Shown: in pieces, positions 29,136 to 38,305 of the stretch | Layout: each line of letters starts with the position of its first letter | How positions within the stretch are numbered: the stretch's first letter is position 1 | Source of the DNA: a virus | Virus record (IMG/VR): IMGVR_UViG_3300023094_000023 | Location: 1-38,305 of that record | Reading direction: 5' to 3' (one strand) | Length of the DNA: 38,305 nucleotides | Notes under the pieces: generated by a model | Databases searched by the model: none | Told to the model about the DNA's origin: nothing | The model's input: only the letters and a program-made list of their open reading frames with translations | Made by a program: the position numbers and the translations under genes

Positions 29136-29341
29136 CGATCATCGTTCGCATTCAAGATATCCGCGATGCCGGATTCTGCTCTCGCGGTGCGCGCCGCTGG
29201 GCCGCAGAAAACGGCTGGGACTTCCGCGACTTCCTGCTCAACGGAATGCCGGTCGAGAAGATGGAAGAACACGGCGACTACTTCTGCTTGACGGTGGCCG
29301 CGCATGTACGCAAAAAACACAACGAGGTGAACAATGGGTAA
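29132..29341 (+). CDS. Small hypothetical tail-region protein
   Basis: The 69-residue product has the sequence IQDIRDAGFCSRGARRWAAEN, then FRDFLLNGMPVEKMEE and GDYFCLTVAAHVR. From memory this pattern recurs in small proteins found before hub genes in related siphoviruses, but no function is known to me. Two cysteines (C16, C52) could pair or bind metal. It overlaps both neighbours: the ATG lies in the preceding stop (ATGA) and its end overlaps the hub gene start by eight bases. Confidence 0.65.
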   Translation: MTIIVRIQDIRDAGFCSRGARRWAAENGWDFRDFLLNGMPVEKMEEHGDYFCLTVAAHVRKKHNEVNNG

Positions 29342-30803
29342 GAAGGGCGGCGATCCGATCACCGGATATAAGTACAGCTTCGGCATTCACATGGGCCTTT
29401 CGCGTGGCCCCATCGACGAGGTGGTGGAGATTCGCGTGGGCGACAAGGCGGCGTGGGTTGGCAGCGTTACCGACACCGGGCCGCTGGACGTGTATGCGCC
29501 AGAACTGTTCGGCGGTAACAAGCAGGAAGGCGGCGTGGAAGGCAGCGGCTACCTGATGATGGGCAAGCCTGACCAGACTGCGTTCGGCGCGCTGGTGTCG
29601 ATGGTCGGCCACGCGCTGCCCGGCTTCCGCCGCATGGCGACCTACTTCTTCAACGGCGCAATCGCGTCGAACTCGCCGTACCCGAAGGCGTGGAAGTTCC
29701 GCGTGCGCCGCGCAGTCAAAGGCTGGGAGAACGACGCGCCGTGGTATCCAGAAAAGGCCGTCATCGAATTGCAGGGGCCGAAGGACTTCACGACCAGCGA
29801 GGCCAACCTGACCATCAAGGCCATGAACCCGGCGCACATCATCATGGAGTGCATGACCAACCGCGAGTGGGGCCGTGGCCTGCCGATGTCAGCGATGGAC
29901 GTGGGCGCGTTCGCCGCATGTGCCGACACGCTGGCGACTGAAGGCTTCGGGCTGTGCCTGCGCTGGACCCGCCGCGACACGCTCAAGGCGTTCATCCAGT
30001 CGGTGCTCGATGCCATCGGTGCCGCGATGTATGCCGACCGCGAAACCGGCCTGCTGAAGCTGAAGCTGATCCGCCTCGACTATGATCCGAATGCGCTGCC
30101 GATCTACACCAGCGACAACGGCATCGTCGAGATCAAGGAAGCGGACGTGTCGGCGCTCGGCCCATCGGTCAACGAGATCATCGTCGAATACGTGGACCCG
30201 ATCAGCGGCGAGAAGCGCACCAAGGGCGCACAGAATCTCGGCCTGCTGCAATCGACACGCGGCGTATTCAACTCGCTGACGAAGCCGTACCCCGGCGTGC
30301 CGACGCCTGAACTGGCCGCTCGTGTCGCACAGCGCGAACTGCGGTTGAACGCACTGGCGCTGCGCCGCTTCGAGATCGTGTTCGACCGCCGCGCATGGCG
30401 CATCCCACCAGCCGGTGTCATGCGCATCAGCGATCCGGTGCGCGGCATCAACAACGTGGTCGTGCGTGTCGGCCGCATCGACGATGGCACGCTCGCATCC
30501 GGCAGCATCACCATCACCGCCGTGCAGGACGTGTTCGCGCTGCCGCAGACTTCCTTCAGCGGAACCGAGCCGCCGAACTGGGTGAAGCCGAACAACAAGC
30601 CGATCCTGAAGGAGCACCGCGCATTCGAGGTGCCGTACTTCCTGCTGAACCAGTCCATGTCGCCAGCCGACTTCGACTACCTGTCCGACGACAGTGGCTT
30701 CCTCGGCACCGTCGTGGCAAAACCATCCGACCTTTCCTTGGCCTATAACATCTTCGTCAAACCCGGCGCTGCCGAAGACGACGAACAACCTGTGACTCCG
30801 TAA
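29334..30803 (+). CDS. Tail hub protein (baseplate hub)
   Basis: The 489-residue protein is the likely central hub of the tail tip. The N-terminus has YKYSFGIHMGLSRGPIDEV and VRVGDKAAW, and the middle NREWGRGLPMSAMD and VNEIIVEYVDPISGEKR; these are typical of hub proteins related to the N-terminal part of lambda gpJ and gene transfer agent megatron. Unlike gpJ (over 1100 residues) it lacks the fibre-like C-terminus, which here seems to be supplied by separate downstream genes. GAGGTGA precedes the ATG. The stop overlaps the next start (TAATG). No peptidoglycan hydrolase motif is seen. Confidence 0.78.
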   Translation: MGKKGGDPITGYKYSFGIHMGLSRGPIDEVVEIRVGDKAAWVGSVTDTGPLDVYAPELFGGNKQEGGVEGSGYLMMGKPDQTAFGALVSMVGHALPGFRRMATYFFNGAIASNSPYPKAWKFRVRRAVKGWENDAPWYPEKAVIELQGPKDFTTSEANLTIKAMNPAHIIMECMTNREWGRGLPMSAMDVGAFAACADTLATEGFGLCLRWTRRDTLKAFIQSVLDAIGAAMYADRETGLLKLKLIRLDYDPNALPIYTSDNGIVEIKEADVSALGPSVNEIIVEYVDPISGEKRTKGAQNLGLLQSTRGVFNSLTKPYPGVPTPELAARVAQRELRLNALALRRFEIVFDRRAWRIPPAGVMRISDPVRGINNVVVRVGRIDDGTLASGSITITAVQDVFALPQTSFSGTEPPNWVKPNNKPILKEHRAFEVPYFLLNQSMSPADFDYLSDDSGFLGTVVAKPSDLSLAYNIFVKPGAAEDDEQPVTP

Positions 30804-32707
30804 TGGCAAACAGCGACTATCAGAACATCGGTGCAGGCAGCTTCGCCACCTTCGTGAAAACGGACGTGGCCTACGAGCAGTTGGACACCGCAATCGAATA
30901 CACCGACTTCAACTTCGCCACGTTCGACGCAATCAAGGTGGGCATGGCCGCGTTGTGGGACGACGAGATTTGCCGCGTCGAGACTGTCGGCGTGCGCGCC
31001 TTCACGCTCAAGCGCGGCTGTGCCGACACGCTGCCTGCACGTCACCTGCCCGGCACGATCATCTGGCTGCTGAACCTCGGCACTGTCGGGACCGACCGCA
31101 AAGAGCGCAGCGCGGACGAGACGGTGGCCGTGAAGATTTCACCGTTCACTATCGGCGGCGGCAACCTCCCCATCGGCGTCGTGGCCCCGGACGAGGTGAC
31201 GTTCAACTGGCGCTACTTCCGCCCGTACAACGCGGCGTACCTGTTCGCCAATGCAGCGCGCTGGTACTTGGGCGCTACGCTCAACTCGACGACTGGCGGC
31301 GTGAACCTGACGTGGCGTGACCGCAATCGCGTCATGCAGGCCGACCAGCTTCTCGGCCAAGACGACGCCACCATGACCCCGGAGGTCGGCACCACCTACA
31401 CGATGCGCCTGCATGACGCTGGCGGCGCGCTGCTGCGCGAGGAACCCGGCATCATCGGCAACGCCTTCCTCTACCAGTACGGCAAAGCGCTGCACGATGT
31501 CGGCAATCCCGGCACGCCGGTCAACGCGACCGTCACGTTCTACAGCGAGCGGCAGGGTATGGAGTCGATGCAGGGCTACGCGGTGCCGGTGACGATCCAG
31601 CCGGGCGGCGCGCTGCCTTCCGTGTGGCAGCAGTTCGATCAACGCGGCATGGCCTCGCCATACATTATGAACGTCAAGCGCGGCCTGCCACCATCGACGC
31701 TGACGCAGGACTACCTGCTCGCGTTCGGCGTGCGCCCGGCTGACCGCATGAGCGACACGTACAACATGTACCGCCACTGGATCGAGACGGTGGACACTGG
31801 TGAAGACGACGGCAACGGCGATCCGATCTACGACTACGTGCATCACCACGACCTGATCGGCTCGAAGCCATACACGCCTTGGGTCAGTCTGGAGTTCCGC
31901 TTGCCCGAACTGGAGCAGATCGTCAACGTGCGTTCGTCCTCGCTGTACGACGGCGTGCGCATCAGTCAGGATTTGGTCGGCAACTACGCGCTGATCGACG
32001 ACGAGTTGGTCATCATCATCGCAATCCCCGGCGACGGCACGATCAAGATTTTCCGAGGCATGGGTGACACCATCCCGGCAGTCCACATCGCCGGTAGCCG
32101 CATGTTCATCTTCGACGAGACGTGCGTGATCGACCCTACGCTGCGTGGCGGCGGCAGCTACGACTACCGACTGCAACCCGGCGTGTACGGCCCAGCGGTG
32201 GACGTGGACACGCTGCCGTCGCTGCCGATCAATCCGAACGCTCGCGGCTACCGGCCATACAACGTCGGCCAGTTGCAGGTGAACGGTCGGCCGTGGTTCG
32301 AGGAAGCGCAGGCCATCAACGGCGCACCGCTGCAAATCCTGTGGGCGTGGCGCAACCGCATCACGCAATCGAGCACGCCGGTCGATCACACTTATCCGTC
32401 CATCGATCCTGAACCCGGCACGACGGCCCGCGTGATCTTCTACTACGAGACGCCGCCCGCCAGTGAAGGCAGCAACCCGGTGCAGCACAACCTGCGCGTG
32501 GTGAACGTGAACCCGGTGGCCGGTCAAGACGGCTCGTTCCAGTACACCTACGCGATGGCACTGACTGACGGCGAGATCGCAGGCCAAGCACTCGGCCAGT
32601 GCGGCACCATCGTCATCTACTGCCGCATCGACTGCGTGCGCGAGAACTACATTTCGTTCCAGCGCTACGTCATCCCTGTCCGTGTCCCATCCTACCCTTG
32701 CACCTGA
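30803..32707 (+). CDS. Tail protein with two copies of a repeated module (paralogue A)
   Basis: The 634-residue protein starts MANSDY and contains the same module twice, about 347 residues apart. Landmarks in copy 1: KRGCADTLPARH (70-81), FRPYN (139-143), LTWRDRNR (169-176), a TTYTMRLHD strand and a MQGYAVPV ending. In copy 2: FRGMGDTIPAVH (417-428), YRPYN (483-487), LWAWRNR (514-520) and FQRYVIPV ending. The W-x-x-R-x-R part resembles the fibronectin-like domain found in several phage tail proteins. The next gene is a paralogue. Probably a beta-rich structural component of the tip or side fibres. No catalytic signature is visible. TAATG overlap with the hub gene implies coupling. Confidence 0.75.
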   Translation: MANSDYQNIGAGSFATFVKTDVAYEQLDTAIEYTDFNFATFDAIKVGMAALWDDEICRVETVGVRAFTLKRGCADTLPARHLPGTIIWLLNLGTVGTDRKERSADETVAVKISPFTIGGGNLPIGVVAPDEVTFNWRYFRPYNAAYLFANAARWYLGATLNSTTGGVNLTWRDRNRVMQADQLLGQDDATMTPEVGTTYTMRLHDAGGALLREEPGIIGNAFLYQYGKALHDVGNPGTPVNATVTFYSERQGMESMQGYAVPVTIQPGGALPSVWQQFDQRGMASPYIMNVKRGLPPSTLTQDYLLAFGVRPADRMSDTYNMYRHWIETVDTGEDDGNGDPIYDYVHHHDLIGSKPYTPWVSLEFRLPELEQIVNVRSSSLYDGVRISQDLVGNYALIDDELVIIIAIPGDGTIKIFRGMGDTIPAVHIAGSRMFIFDETCVIDPTLRGGGSYDYRLQPGVYGPAVDVDTLPSLPINPNARGYRPYNVGQLQVNGRPWFEEAQAINGAPLQILWAWRNRITQSSTPVDHTYPSIDPEPGTTARVIFYYETPPASEGSNPVQHNLRVVNVNPVAGQDGSFQYTYAMALTDGEIAGQALGQCGTIVIYCRIDCVRENYISFQRYVIPVRVPSYPCT

Positions 32708-32708
32708 T

Positions 32709-35147
32709 ATGGCAAATAGCGATTACAAAGCCCCCTCCAATGTCCGCGCCGGTCACTTCACGCCGCTCGCGGAACTCGCCGCTGCCATCGACTACCTCGA
32801 TCACAGCATCCCGCTGGGCCGCACGAACTTCCCTACCGCTGATTCGTTAGAGGTCGGCATGGCGTGCTTGTGCGAAGACGAGTTCATGGCGCTGACCGCG
32901 ATCACGCCGAGCGGCATTACCGTCAAGCGCGGCACCGCCGACACCGTGCCAGCGAAGCATCCGAAGGACGCGCTGATCTGGTTCTTCGACGCGCCGCTGG
33001 TGTCGTCGGACGCGAAGGAGTACAGCGCGGGCGAGACGACGAGCGTGAAGTATTCCCCCTACACTATCGGCGGCGGCGCGTTCCCGTACCAGCAGTCGCC
33101 GGTTGACGAGGTGACGTTCAACTACCGCTTCTTCCGCCCGTACCCGCCCGGCCAGATGCGCGCCAACGGTGATCGCTGGTGGATCGAGCACGTCATCACG
33201 ACGGACGCGCCGAACCTGAAGCTGACGTTCGCGCACCGCTCGCGCATCATCGAAGCCGATCAACTCGTAGACCATGACGTGACGAACATCGGGCCTGAAG
33301 CTGGCACCACATACACGGCCCGCATCTACGACGCGGCCGGTGTGCTGAAGGCGACGTACAGCGGGATCATGTCCGTGCTGCGTGACCGCTACGGCAAACT
33401 GATCGCGCCGAACTGGACGTACACATGGCGGCAGGCGATGACGGACCTCGGCTTCGACAACCCGACCGAAGAGGAACAACTGGTGCCGGGCGTGATGACG
33501 TTCGTGTCTACCCGCGACGGCTTCGACTCGTGGCAGGGATACACGCTGCCGTTCAAGATCGACATTCAGGGCAAGTTCATCAAGGTCGCGCAGCTTGCCG
33601 AAATGGCGGCGCAGCAGCCTGACCCTATCGCTGATCCCGGCACGCCGCCAATCGGTTTGACCGTGGGCCAGTACGGCGAAATGGTGGCGCAGAATCCGTC
33701 GCCGCTGGACGATGATGTCGTGTCGTCGGCCGCGCTGTATGTCGGTCAGGTGGCGCAGGGTGCGGCGTCGGAGACGAACTTCTACACGTCAATGAACCGC
33801 AACCTGTTCTCGGCACCCTATGCGTTCACGGCGGCGCTGGGCTTCACCGGCTCGCACACGGTCGTGACCGTGGCGGCGCGGCCGAGCGACAGGCTGGTGG
33901 ACAGCTACGACTTGTGGACGCGCTACGACTGGCCCGCTGGCACTGGCAACCTGCTGCCGTACAGCGAGGTGGACGAACCTGACTGGACGCCGTGGGCCAC
34001 ACTGCTCGCAACCGTCGCGCAGTTGGACAACAGGATCGAGTTCGACAAGACCTCGTTCGTTGATGGCGTTGCGCTGTCGTCCGTGGAGCCGGGCCAGATC
34101 GCAATGATCGACGCCGAAATGATCCGTGTGGATTCCATCGACGCTACCGGCATCAACTTCTCGCGTGGCTGCTATGACACCGTACCGGCCAAGCACAACA
34201 AGGGCGCACGCATCTGGTTCTTCGGCGCGCAGTTCGGCATCGACCGTGCAGACTACCCGGAGAAGATCGTCGCCAAGGTCTTGAATGGTGCCTTGCAGGT
34301 GAAAATGCGGCCGAGTGTCTACGGACCCCCACTGAACCTGCTGGACGTGCCTACGGATCGAATTGAGACGTTGAACCGCCCTGACCGTCCATACCCTCCG
34401 GGTCAGGTGATGGCGAACGACAAGCGCTGGTTCAGCGGCGCAGTGGTGCAGGCCGACACGCCGGTCAACATCACATGGGTCCACCGTCATCGCACCGACC
34501 AAGGCGCGCAGGTGATCGACCACCTCGCACCAGACCAAGGCGCGGAGACGGAGCAGAAGTATCGCCTGACCATCAGCATCACGATCACGCCGAAGGCCGC
34601 AGGCGCGAAGCCGTACATCGTCATCATCCGCCGCGAGATCGTGGACGGCACTAGCTGGACGTACACCTACGAAATGGCGAAGCAGGATGGCTACCGTGCC
34701 GGTTCGCTGCTGGGCGTGTGTGGCCGCGTCACGGTTGGTCTGGTGCTGGAGGCGATCCGCTATGACTTGGTGTCGTGGCAGAACTACGTGATCCCGCTGG
34801 GCCTGCCTTCGTACACCTGCCCGCCCGGCCAGCCGCCCGGTGGTGGTCAGCTTCCTCCGAACACTGGCGGCGGCAATGGCGACACTGGCGGTGAAACACC
34901 GGGCGGTCAAACGCCGGGCGGCGATAATACCGGCGATGGGCCGAAAGACCCTATCGACAATGGCGGTGGTGGCGGTGATAACGGCACCGGCCCGCCGAAG
35001 CCACCGGAGCTTCCGCCCGACTGGCCGGACCCCGTTGATCCACCGGACCCGGACCCGAATGATCCGAATCCAAATCTGGCGGCGCACTGGGACTTGAACT
35101 GGGATCGTCACTGGGACGCCTACAACAAAGACAACACAGGGAACTAA
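32709..35147 (+). CDS. Tail protein with two copies of the same module and a Gly/Pro-rich C-terminus (paralogue B)
   Basis: The 812-residue protein also starts MANSDY and repeats the module of the previous gene. Copy 1 landmarks: KRGTADTVPAKH (73-84), FRPYPPG (142-148), HRSR (176-179), WQGYTLPF. Copy 2: SRGCYDTVPAKH (485-496), RPYPPG (560-565), WVHRHR (590-595), WQNYVIPL. Between the copies is a segment with two similar short repeats (VAQLAEMAAQQPDP, VGQYGEMVAQNPSP). After about residue 705 comes a Gly/Pro/Asp-rich linker, then AAHWDLNWDRHWDAYN at the end. The ATG is two bases after the preceding stop with no ribosome-binding site, so reinitiation is likely. Linker plus Trp-rich tip suggests attachment of a further appendage protein. 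Confidence 0.75.
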   Translation: MANSDYKAPSNVRAGHFTPLAELAAAIDYLDHSIPLGRTNFPTADSLEVGMACLCEDEFMALTAITPSGITVKRGTADTVPAKHPKDALIWFFDAPLVSSDAKEYSAGETTSVKYSPYTIGGGAFPYQQSPVDEVTFNYRFFRPYPPGQMRANGDRWWIEHVITTDAPNLKLTFAHRSRIIEADQLVDHDVTNIGPEAGTTYTARIYDAAGVLKATYSGIMSVLRDRYGKLIAPNWTYTWRQAMTDLGFDNPTEEEQLVPGVMTFVSTRDGFDSWQGYTLPFKIDIQGKFIKVAQLAEMAAQQPDPIADPGTPPIGLTVGQYGEMVAQNPSPLDDDVVSSAALYVGQVAQGAASETNFYTSMNRNLFSAPYAFTAALGFTGSHTVVTVAARPSDRLVDSYDLWTRYDWPAGTGNLLPYSEVDEPDWTPWATLLATVAQLDNRIEFDKTSFVDGVALSSVEPGQIAMIDAEMIRVDSIDATGINFSRGCYDTVPAKHNKGARIWFFGAQFGIDRADYPEKIVAKVLNGALQVKMRPSVYGPPLNLLDVPTDRIETLNRPDRPYPPGQVMANDKRWFSGAVVQADTPVNITWVHRHRTDQGAQVIDHLAPDQGAETEQKYRLTISITITPKAAGAKPYIVIIRREIVDGTSWTYTYEMAKQDGYRAGSLLGVCGRVTVGLVLEAIRYDLVSWQNYVIPLGLPSYTCPPGQPPGGGQLPPNTGGGNGDTGGETPGGQTPGGDNTGDGPKDPIDNGGGGGDNGTGPPKPPELPPDWPDPVDPPDPDPNDPNPNLAAHWDLNWDRHWDAYNKDNTGN

Positions 35148-35148
35148 A

Positions 35149-35883
35149 ATGTCACGACACGAATCAGCACGATGGAAGATCAGCTACGGTTGGCTGCGCG
35201 GTGAAGACTGGTGGGGCGATCCGGTCAGCAACAACTTCGTGCTCATGGATATTCTGCTGCACCCTTGGGCCGTCAGCATGAACGAGAACACGCCACCGGC
35301 CGCGCTCGCCATCGGCGCGCAGTACATCATCGGCCCGAACCCGGTTGGCGGCTGGGCCGGTCATCCGCTCGAACTCGCGGTGTATAGCGAGAACGGCTGG
35401 GTGTTCTGCAAGCCGCTGGTGAAGGGTGTGCGCGTCGGCTGCGAGTCGCCCGCTGGCTGGTACTACTGGGACGGCGACGAGTGGGTGGGCGAGGACAAGA
35501 ATGCAGCCGCGCCGCCCGCCGCCGAGGGTCAGTTCTACGACGTGATTATGTGGGTCGGCTTCGCGGCCGAACCGCTCGAAGAGATCGGCGGCATCCCGCT
35601 GCCCGAAGACATGACGTGGCCGAAGGACGCGCTCGACTCGGTGGGCCGCAGCAAGACCGCGCCGGACATCGACGTGGTGATCTCCGTAATGCGAAACTTC
35701 ACGGAGCAGGTTGGTACAATCACGTTCACGCCCGGCTCCACCATCGCTACGTTCGTTGTGACAGCAGACCGCGTGTTCGCAAAGGGGCAGACGATCTCCT
35801 TCCAAACGCCGGTCAACATGCCTGAGTTCTTCGCTTCATACGGCGCGACGGTGCGACTCGTTCTTAACCGCACAGGAGGTTGA
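35149..35883 (+). CDS. DUF2793-domain tail appendage protein
   Basis: The 244-residue protein matches DUF2793, common in tail fibre and appendage proteins. Family-like features: VLMDILLHPWAVSMNENTPPAAL, then GAQYIIGPNPVGGWAGHPLELAVY and NGWVFCKPL in residues about 30-90. The C-terminal segment VGTITFTPGSTIATFVVTADRVFAKGQTISFQ is also typical of such proteins. AGGGA lies six bases before the ATG. It probably links or decorates the fibre, perhaps holding the two lectin-like proteins encoded next; no enzymatic motif is present. Confidence 0.75.
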   Translation: MSRHESARWKISYGWLRGEDWWGDPVSNNFVLMDILLHPWAVSMNENTPPAALAIGAQYIIGPNPVGGWAGHPLELAVYSENGWVFCKPLVKGVRVGCESPAGWYYWDGDEWVGEDKNAAAPPAAEGQFYDVIMWVGFAAEPLEEIGGIPLPEDMTWPKDALDSVGRSKTAPDIDVVISVMRNFTEQVGTITFTPGSTIATFVVTADRVFAKGQTISFQTPVNMPEFFASYGATVRLVLNRTGG

Positions 35884-35884
35884 T

Positions 35885-36880
35885 GTGATTTTTATTGACG
35901 GCTTTGAAGGCTTCAGCGGTCCCGGCAATCCGGCCGCACTGTTGCAGCGCGCCGAGTACGTCGCCACCGGCACGCTGTCGTCGGTTGGCGGTCGCTCGTC
36001 GTTCACCGGCAGTGCGGCGCTCGCGGGCGGCAAGGTGTCGGTGACGCGCACCTTCCCTTGGGTGACGCCGAAGTTTTCGTGCGGCCTCGCCCACCAGTTC
36101 AGCGCACGCGGCTCGGTGATGTGGGTCAAGATCGGCACCTCGTACATCACGCTTTGGATGAACGAAGAGAACGGCCTGCCGATGCTCAACGAGAACGCTG
36201 GTGGCGCACTGCCGACCATCACGCGCTGGTACTACTACGAGCTTCTGCTGAACCGCGACAACGACACCTGCGAACTGTGGATCAACAACAAGCTGGATCA
36301 GTCGATCCCGTTGCCCGCAGGTGCCGACGCCGCGACCACCATCGACGTGTCTATCGGCTACCGCGATCCAGCGCTGTACCGCCCGGCCGGGTTCCCGGTC
36401 TACGCCGACAACGGCAACCGCTACATGGACGACTTCTACGCACGCGACAACGACCGCATCGGCCCGGTGATCGTGACCACGCGCTTTCCGTCACACGACG
36501 AGAACGTGGAGTGGTTCGCGGCATCGCCAACCGGCACGCACTCGGCCAGCCTGTCGCTGCATCCGCCGAAGCCGCTGGACAACTACGTGGCGTCCGACGA
36601 GATCGGCAAAGAGGATCGCTTCACGTCCGGCGTGCTGCTGCCGAACGAAAACGAGATTCTGGCAACCGGCATGCTCGTGATGGCGCGCAAGGCCGACACG
36701 CTCAACGCAAAGCTGGGCGTGTTCATGGGCGGTAACGCTGGAGCAATTGCAGCGCGCTCCGCGAAGCTGACCGTGGACAACAACTGGAAGACGCAGTACG
36801 CGGCCTTCGACAAAAACGGTGGCGACACCAAGGCGGGAGTCGAAGCCTCCCAATTCGGAATCAACGTAGCAACTCCATAA
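35885..36880 (+). CDS. Lectin-like (concanavalin/LamG-fold-like) tail appendage protein
   Basis: The 331-residue protein starts FIDGFEGF and then shows a jelly-roll pattern: GSAAL (42-46), TRTFP (54-58), GLAH (67-70), WYYYELLLNR (115-124), LWINNKLD (131-138) and YMDDFYARD near 185-193. The WYYYE..LNR and L.IN pair is typical of LamG/concanavalin-like strands in phage appendages, which often bind surface sugars. A second beta-rich domain fills residues about 200-331 (ending ASQFGINVATP). The start is GTG at 35885, set by AGGAGG five bases upstream, one of the strongest ribosome-binding sites here; an ATG two bases earlier runs straight into a stop. The next gene is a paralogue with an inserted domain. 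Sugar binding is inferred. Confidence 0.72.
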   Translation: MIFIDGFEGFSGPGNPAALLQRAEYVATGTLSSVGGRSSFTGSAALAGGKVSVTRTFPWVTPKFSCGLAHQFSARGSVMWVKIGTSYITLWMNEENGLPMLNENAGGALPTITRWYYYELLLNRDNDTCELWINNKLDQSIPLPAGADAATTIDVSIGYRDPALYRPAGFPVYADNGNRYMDDFYARDNDRIGPVIVTTRFPSHDENVEWFAASPTGTHSASLSLHPPKPLDNYVASDEIGKEDRFTSGVLLPNENEILATGMLVMARKADTLNAKLGVFMGGNAGAIAARSAKLTVDNNWKTQYAAFDKNGGDTKAGVEASQFGINVATP

Positions 36881-36891
36881 GGAAGAAAAGC

Positions 36892-38305
36892 ATGTCCATT
36901 AAATTCATTGATGGCTTCGACCAGTATCAAGGCCAAGCCGCGCAACAACTCCTGTCCTCGCTGTCGTCGGCTGGCTACTCGGTATCGTCGGGCCTCGCAA
37001 TGAACGATGGCCGCAAAGAAGGCAGCTACGCGCTTGAACTGCTCGTGGCTACCGGCGTTGCTGGCAAGTCGTGGTCCGTCCGCACGAACAACGCGGGCAA
37101 CGGCCTGCTCGCCGCCGAGGCGTCCACCACCGGCCACTACATCGCAGTCGGTCGTGGCGGCAAGGCCGTGTACAGCGACGACAGCCTGACGTGGCTCCCG
37201 CTTATCATGGGTGTCTCCAGCGACCTGAACGACGTGAAGAACTTCGGCAATACGTGGATCGCCATCGGCGCGGCATCGGTCATCACGCGCTCGACGGACG
37301 GCCGCAACTTCGCACGCCGCACGCCGCCGACCAACGGCGTGATCCTGTACGCGATTGAAACGGACGGCCTCGGCAACTGGCTGATCGTCGGCGCGAACGG
37401 CGCGAACTCGGTGGTGTGGAAGTCGAACGATGACGGCCTGACGTGGCAACCCGTTGACCTGACGAGCCTCGGCAATGTTCCCGCAGCGCTGTGCGTGCGC
37501 CGCAAGAACGGCGTGTGGATTGTCGGCCTCGCCAACGGCAGCTATCTGGTCACGCCTGATCTGCTGGCGTGGTCGATGAACGCTGGCCTCGGCACCTTCT
37601 CGGTCTTGTCCCTCGACGCCGACAACAACGGCCTGTGGTATGCCGTCACCGCGAACGTCGGTAGCACGCGCACGCTCCTGCGCTCGACAAACAACGGTGC
37701 GACGTGGCAGGACTCCGGGATCAACGTAGCCATCGGCGCATACGACACGATCCGCTGGGCAGATGGCCGCTGGATTCTGGTCGGCATGCCTTCTGGCTCT
37801 GCGTCGGCCGTGACGAACATCGGCGTGTCGGACGACGGCCTGCTGTGGGAGATCGTGACCGTGAACGGCGCGAGTGTGCGCATCCGCGATGTGTCGCCAG
37901 TGCCAGCGCCGCGCAGCGGCTGGATCGCTGTCGGTGACAACGGCGTCGGCACCAGCGCTACCACGTCACCCGCGATCCTGATGTCGCTGGCCCCGGCCAC
38001 CACCGTGCAGCGCACCTTCCCGGCACCTGTCGAGGTGGTGGAGTTCACGGTCGGCTTCGCCCACATGTCGAACACACGCGGCAAGATTCTGTCCATCGCT
38101 GGCGTGGTCGATATGGACTGGCCGTCGTTCATCACGATGGGCGGCGTCAACGGCGGCGCGATCCCGGCGCGCAATGTCTGGTACTACTACGAGGTGACGA
38201 TCAACCGCACCGCCAAGACCGCGACCCTCCACATCAACGACACGCTCGACATCACCTGCCCGATCAGCAACGAAGCGGCGGCGCGCACCAGCTACGACTT
38301 CCAGT
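36892..38305 (+). CDS. Lectin-like tail appendage protein with inserted beta-propeller (partial, cut by window end)
   Basis: At least 471 residues are encoded, open through the window end. It begins KFIDGFDQYQ and has GSYAL (44-48) like its neighbour, but RTFP appears only at 374-377 instead of 55-58, then GFAH (388-391), WYYYEVTINR (430-439) and LHINDTLD (446-453). The interposed 320 residues are a beta-propeller: Asp-box-like turns at about 95, 134, 178, 221, 265 and 313 (e.g. SNDDGLTW, STNNGATW), each preceded by a W-[IL]-x-VG-type strand. Asp-box propellers occur in sialidases and surface-binding proteins; no catalytic residues are evident. AAGGAAG precedes the ATG. It is the last gene in view and a likely host-recognition protein. 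Confidence 0.8.
   Translation, partial: MSIKFIDGFDQYQGQAAQQLLSSLSSAGYSVSSGLAMNDGRKEGSYALELLVATGVAGKSWSVRTNNAGNGLLAAEASTTGHYIAVGRGGKAVYSDDSLTWLPLIMGVSSDLNDVKNFGNTWIAIGAASVITRSTDGRNFARRTPPTNGVILYAIETDGLGNWLIVGANGANSVVWKSNDDGLTWQPVDLTSLGNVPAALCVRRKNGVWIVGLANGSYLVTPDLLAWSMNAGLGTFSVLSLDADNNGLWYAVTANVGSTRTLLRSTNNGATWQDSGINVAIGAYDTIRWADGRWILVGMPSGSASAVTNIGVSDDGLLWEIVTVNGASVRIRDVSPVPAPRSGWIAVGDNGVGTSATTSPAILMSLAPATTVQRTFPAPVEVVEFTVGFAHMSNTRGKILSIAGVVDMDWPSFITMGGVNGGAIPARNVWYYYEVTINRTAKTATLHINDTLDITCPISNEAAARTSYDFQ

Follow-up and report, generated by a model that had tools for sequence, protein, structure and literature searches.

A predicted seven-bladed propeller inserted into one member of a tandem tail-protein array in a clade of Casjensviridae-type phages

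The tail module and the tandem array

The window, i.e., the whole stretch of DNA analysed here, is an entire IMG/VR virus record of 38,305 bases. Its last two genes, A and B, are tandem paralogues of PHROG 2448 and occupy the first two positions (slots 1 and 2) of an array. Gene B is cut at the contig end: 471 of its ~640 residues lie in the window, and its C-terminal part is known from relatives only. The features are as follows.

35149..35883, plus strand: DUF2793 / PHROG 7049 tail fibre protein, directly 5' of the array (Pfam 2.2e-15, PHROG 7049 1.5e-31)
35885..36880, plus strand: gene A, slot-1 array protein of 331 aa without insert (full-length PHROG 2448 match, 1.4e-55; slot-1 clade in trees)
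36892..38305, plus strand: gene B, slot-2 array protein with the putative propeller insert, cut at the contig end (open frame; flanks match PHROG 2448; orthologues in ten contigs)
36892..37059, plus strand: N-terminal part of the gene B scaffold domain, residues 1-56 (alignment with uninserted members; strand mapping from the model)
37069..37989, plus strand: predicted seven-bladed propeller insert, ~residues 60-366 (AF2 model of L029 mapped onto the window; Foldseek; profile against PDB sequences)
37174..37194, plus strand: Asp-box-like turn 1, SDDSLTW (pattern)
37291..37311, plus strand: Asp-box-like turn 2, STDGRNF (pattern)
37423..37446, plus strand: Asp-box-like turn 3, SNDDGLTW (pattern)
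37552..37572, plus strand: Asp-box-like turn 4, TPDLLAW, degenerate (pattern)
37684..37707, plus strand: Asp-box-like turn 5, STNNGATW (pattern)
37828..37848, plus strand: Asp-box-like turn 6, SDDGLLW (pattern)
37990..38304, plus strand: gene B scaffold domain resumed after the insert, residues 367-471, then cut (best PHROG 2448 stretch 370-469)

Six landmarks are common to the two proteins, all of them at the places given in a preliminary description of this DNA. In A these are FIDGF (residue 3), GSAAL (42), RTFP (55), GLAH (67), WYYYELLLNR (115) and LWINNKLD (131); in B, FIDGF (5), GSYAL (44), RTFP (374), GFAH (388), WYYYEVTINR (430) and LHINDTLD (446). GSxAL and RTFP are separated by 8 residues in A but by 325 in B, close to the ~10 and ~328 reported there, and the Asp-box-like turns of gene B start at residues 95, 134, 178, 221 (the degenerate one), 265 and 313, with the spacing of 39-48 residues reported earlier.

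Residues 371-469 of gene B are 35% identical to gene A. The flanks of gene B match PHROG 2448 at 3.3e-25 and the match is confined to them; the full-length orthologue from contig L018 reaches 1.1e-67, with the best stretch at 341-633. A propeller profile built from relatives, with the window left out, scored 193.7 bits on gene B compared to at most 7.0 bits on 998 shuffled versions of the protein. The PHROG 2448 matches and this shuffle test indicate that neither the resemblance of A to B nor the propeller is due to chance.

By its tail module and array, the window phage is placed with phages of the Casjensviridae type (Chi/BcepNazgul-like). The tail-tip protein encoded at 29334-30803 is 47% identical to that of BcepNazgul; its PDB matches are chain 8vjh_A, a minor tail protein, and chain 8rk3_o. 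The array located 3' of the DUF2793 gene is the one known from Chi-like genomes, and the gene order (DUF2793 tail fibre gene followed by the tandem array) is common to the window, its clade and other Casjensviridae. The last 8.3 kb of the window have no near DNA match among named phage records.

The tail-tip region (29334-35147) consists of three genes here, coding for 489, 634 and 821 aa, compared to one ORF of ~1270-1300 aa in Chi-like phages. The 634-aa and 821-aa products are paralogous to each other (38% over 320 aa, E 9e-58), and each of them matches PHROG 1101 in the same middle portion. The three-gene split is preserved in several relatives. The closest relative seen is contig L097, whose tail-tip protein is 91% identical to that of the window; there is no array protein in its examined stretch.

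Predicted structure of the inserted slot-2 protein

The structure was predicted with AlphaFold2 for the full-length L029 orthologue (634 aa). The first run, with seven orthologues, modelled the scaffold poorly (mean pLDDT 66). With a 51-row alignment of the window and viral loci only, mean pLDDT rose to 93.6 (pTM 0.81, no residue below 50), so the poor first model can be attributed to the shallow alignment. The model is a prediction only, its confidence being measured by pLDDT and pTM; pLDDT is ~78-97 in the insert region.

The predicted strands between residues 60 and 352 can be arranged into seven four-stranded blades (our own grouping of the DSSP strand list). By our reading of the same list, the first insert strand (60-63) would serve as the outer strand of blade 7, providing a velcro closure. 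The insert is positioned in a hairpin loop between scaffold strands 46-50 and 357-363. The model and the Foldseek matches therefore agree with the original suggestion that the extra block is a propeller, with seven predicted blades, six of them bearing Asp-box-like turns, and the model also places it in one loop of the scaffold domain.

The structure-database search, which had been suggested as a check, listed Ycf48 first among PDB entries (TMt 0.72), and the best solved matches were Ycf48 and other BNR propellers; sialidases were also listed, and seven-bladed designs matched at TMt 0.76-0.78. The propeller sequence profile matched GH74 xyloglucanase at 3.6e-10 and Ycf48 at 8.3e-9. Several relatives match Pfam DUF6242 and PSII_BNR at 1e-6 to 1e-8, and several also match Sortilin-Vps10; gene B of the window scores 18.3 bits with Pfam BNR_2, under the 31.4 cut-off.

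For the flanks, the preliminary description had proposed a single lectin-like jelly roll. One domain is indeed confidently predicted and matches uninserted members. The Foldseek matches of the whole model are mostly due to the propeller, and a PDB sequence search with the scaffold returned no relative below E 0.07. The number and order of its strands suggest a lectin-like jelly roll (ConA-like / LamG) for the scaffold. Among viral predicted structures, the first match was a slot-2 protein without insert, that of Serratia phage JS26 (TMt 0.81, 38% identity). Two BFVD entries, A0A889IQ39 (799 aa) and A0A5Q2WAE5 (730 aa), can be aligned with a large part of the model (14-15% identity) and could carry a similar scaffold-propeller combination.

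Distribution and gain of propeller-type inserts

PHROG 2448 array proteins have an uninterrupted scaffold of ~306-344 aa, from which slot 2 of the window's clade departs by ~300 extra residues; the inserted slot-2 protein is a variant member of this group. Proteins of the same family from Chi, Enc34, JS26 and AchV4 (AchV4_0025), encoded in the same gene slot 3' of the DUF2793 gene, align with the scaffold on both sides and have just a short turn where the window-clade protein has the ~300 residues.

Scans with the paralogue, gene B and the third array protein retrieved ten further distinct contigs, all of which encode a full-length slot-2 protein of 623-634 aa with the insert at the identical site. 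In these orthologues the insert is followed by the remainder of the scaffold and then by a second domain; slots 1 and 3 are without insert in all ten. Related phages had been recommended as a source of an insert-free form, and this form was found: slot 2 has no insert in 25 other loci that carry the same array, and is mostly 316-330 aa long there. In the 51-row alignment, the uninserted rows listed have 0-1 residues across the 283 central insert columns, and both flanks align.

A scan with the tail-tip protein revealed no uninserted slot 2 within the clade and no inserted slot 2 outside it. The contig-end-cut gene B alone gave no match in viral contigs and one Ignavibacteriae propeller in genome contigs. 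None of the 50,697 named phage records covers both scaffold and propeller or has a place covering 80% of the protein, and no description of a propeller-bearing slot-2 protein was found in literature searches.

Some other array proteins are of unusual length. The slot-2 ORF at L041:9387-10139 codes for only 250 aa and was probably shortened by a frameshift or sequencing error. Array proteins encoded at L007:9965-11581, L011:9959-11581, L012:9909-11531 and L173:13315-14877 are longer than usual (~520-540 aa); their extra stretches of ~150 residues have no propeller match, suggesting that the scaffold may accept other domains too.

Trees computed after removal of the insert columns resolve slot-1, slot-3 and inserted slot-2 proteins as distinct, well-supported clades, the inserted slot-2 proteins being one clade (support 99/99-100). 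This speaks against the idea that gene A represents the "before" state of gene B: A and B are old paralogues which split long before the insertion, and A is not an ancestor-like form. The proper "before" comparators are slot 2 of the other phages with the array (the 25 loci) and AchV4_0025. The latter is the nearest uninserted protein, 42% identical over the scaffold, with five residues (STTGN) at the insert site. Grouping every slot-2 protein, with or without insert and with AchV4_0025 included, into a single clade is compatible with the data but not required by them (p-AU 0.46). The insertion, its site and its predicted fold are established computationally, as is its absence from all same-slot comparators, a pattern which fits a single gain at the base of the window's clade.

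The window ends 5' of the slot-4 gene, and a second insert is known from relatives. Nine of the ten relatives encode a slot-4 protein of 712-739 aa, with ~314-334 extra residues near the C-terminus.

L029:11028-13193 and orthologues: slot-4 protein with the second insert
L037:11016-12182: slot-4 protein without the second insert, 388 aa

This extra block has a weak match to neuraminidases and sialidases (best 1.6e-5), and its profile-profile comparison with the slot-2 propeller gives a probability of 96-97%. Judged from these sequence comparisons, the block is a domain of the propeller type. No propeller was seen in slot-4 relatives outside the clade.

The exceptional contig, L037 (the same contig as L022), is sister to L036 in the concatenated tree. 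The two are 78% identical in slot 1, 64% in slot 3 and 35% in the slot-4 flanks. Since slots 3-4 are far more divergent than slot 1, this segment has probably been exchanged, and we do not favour a simple loss of the insert from slot 4 of L037.

We also disfavour an origin of the slot-4 insert as a copy of the slot-2 propeller: the slot-2 profile scores 27 bits on a slot-4 insert and 70-81 bits on propellers from unrelated viral contigs, and the two inserts resemble different solved families. We speculate, giving the idea about an even chance, that the array serves as a modular scaffold for display and that, within one phage clade, its paralogues acquired unlike propellers independently of each other and at different places. 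The captured modules would be a Ycf48/GH74-like propeller in the N-terminal domain of slot 2 and a sialidase-like one near the C-terminus of slot 4.

Possible role of the inserted propeller

AchV4_0025 and AchV4_0026 were detected by LC-MS/MS among AchV4 virion proteins, with 22 and 14 peptides (PMC7996906). This relative supports the view that the slot-2 protein may be part of the virion, but the published data on relatives disagree: array proteins are absent from the virion list of pEp_SNUABM_08 (PMC8310351), so their abundance or detection appears to vary. For Chi and YSD1, binding of the flagellar receptor has been assigned to the tail fibre protein encoded upstream (PMC10399903), so the array would be accessory.

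Propellers related to the slot-2 insert are present in proteins of other phages too, namely of Limnohabitans phage DC31, in a tail fibre of Caulobacter phage Percy and in baseplate wedge initiators of Synechococcus phages. For Percy and the cyanophages, the protein concerned is annotated as belonging to the tail or baseplate. The DC31 and Percy propeller proteins showed no PHROG 2448 scaffold. The seven-bladed propellers of the Ycf48 / BNR type have the fold and the Asp-box-like turns in common with the slot-2 insert, but are separate proteins or end domains, while the slot-2 propeller is predicted to lie within a loop of another domain.

The explanation we prefer, though we would not put it above an even likelihood, is as follows. 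Gene B occupies slot 2 of a conserved array that encodes three to four tail proteins in tandem (PHROG 2448 and kin) and that, in Casjensviridae-type phages, lies 3' of the tail-tip genes. The window's clade would descend from an ancestor in which one hairpin loop of the N-terminal scaffold domain received a ready-made propeller of ~290 residues, seven-bladed and BNR/Ycf48-like. As the propeller ends meet at one blade, a single loop could carry it while the scaffold still folds. The scaffold would presumably hold the protein on the tail, with the propeller facing outward as an accessory module that may bind a host surface polysaccharide or protein.

It is rather unlikely, yet deserves attention, that the propeller is architectural, i.e., that it makes the tail protein larger or stiffer, or touches another part of the tail, and does not bind the host. 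Ycf48, the best structural match, is an assembly factor binding a protein partner, and the array proteins adjoin tail-tip genes. However, all 25 uninserted slot-2 relatives manage without a propeller, and the second, unlike propeller-type insert in another array protein suggests displayed modules over one fixed assembly contact.

Still more doubtful is an enzymatic role, with the propeller acting as a glycosidase, for instance a sialidase, to trim glycans on the host surface instead of binding them. The profile matches to GH74 xyloglucanase, the sialidases among the Foldseek matches and the match of the L031 insert to NCBIfam F510_1955 glycosylhydrolase (6.6e-10) point in this direction, but the latter scores 38.7 bits against a cut-off of 175. 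Moreover, sialidases have six blades and GH74 enzymes act between two propellers, while the slot-2 insert is predicted to be one propeller of seven blades. An assembly artefact or chimeric gene might be suspected for a gene at a contig end, where assembly errors are common, but it has a negligible chance of being right, being already refuted by ten further distinct contigs with the same open full-length architecture and site, and one uninterrupted frame spans both insert junctions in the window.

Returning to the displayed binding module, its closest counterpart is the "evolved Dit", a distal tail protein of 936 lactococcal siphophages with an internally inserted carbohydrate-binding module (PMC6669499). 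It is likewise a tail structural protein with an internal binding-module insertion, but the scaffold is a distal tail protein, the module is BppA-like, and its binding was tested there (PMC6669499), while that of the slot-2 propeller is presumed here. Inserted binding modules in tail proteins are therefore already known from other phages, and the slot-2 insertion is a known type of tail-protein change, not a new principle. The second propeller-type insert, in slot 4 of the same array, is newly recognised here.

The inserted clade, the 25 uninserted same-slot comparators and the second insert make the loop-insertion route testable. They also offer a lead to the function of PHROG 2448, a family annotated as "unknown function". 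If the array does act as a display scaffold, it would constitute a series of domain insertions made by nature, each comparable with orthologues that lack the insert.
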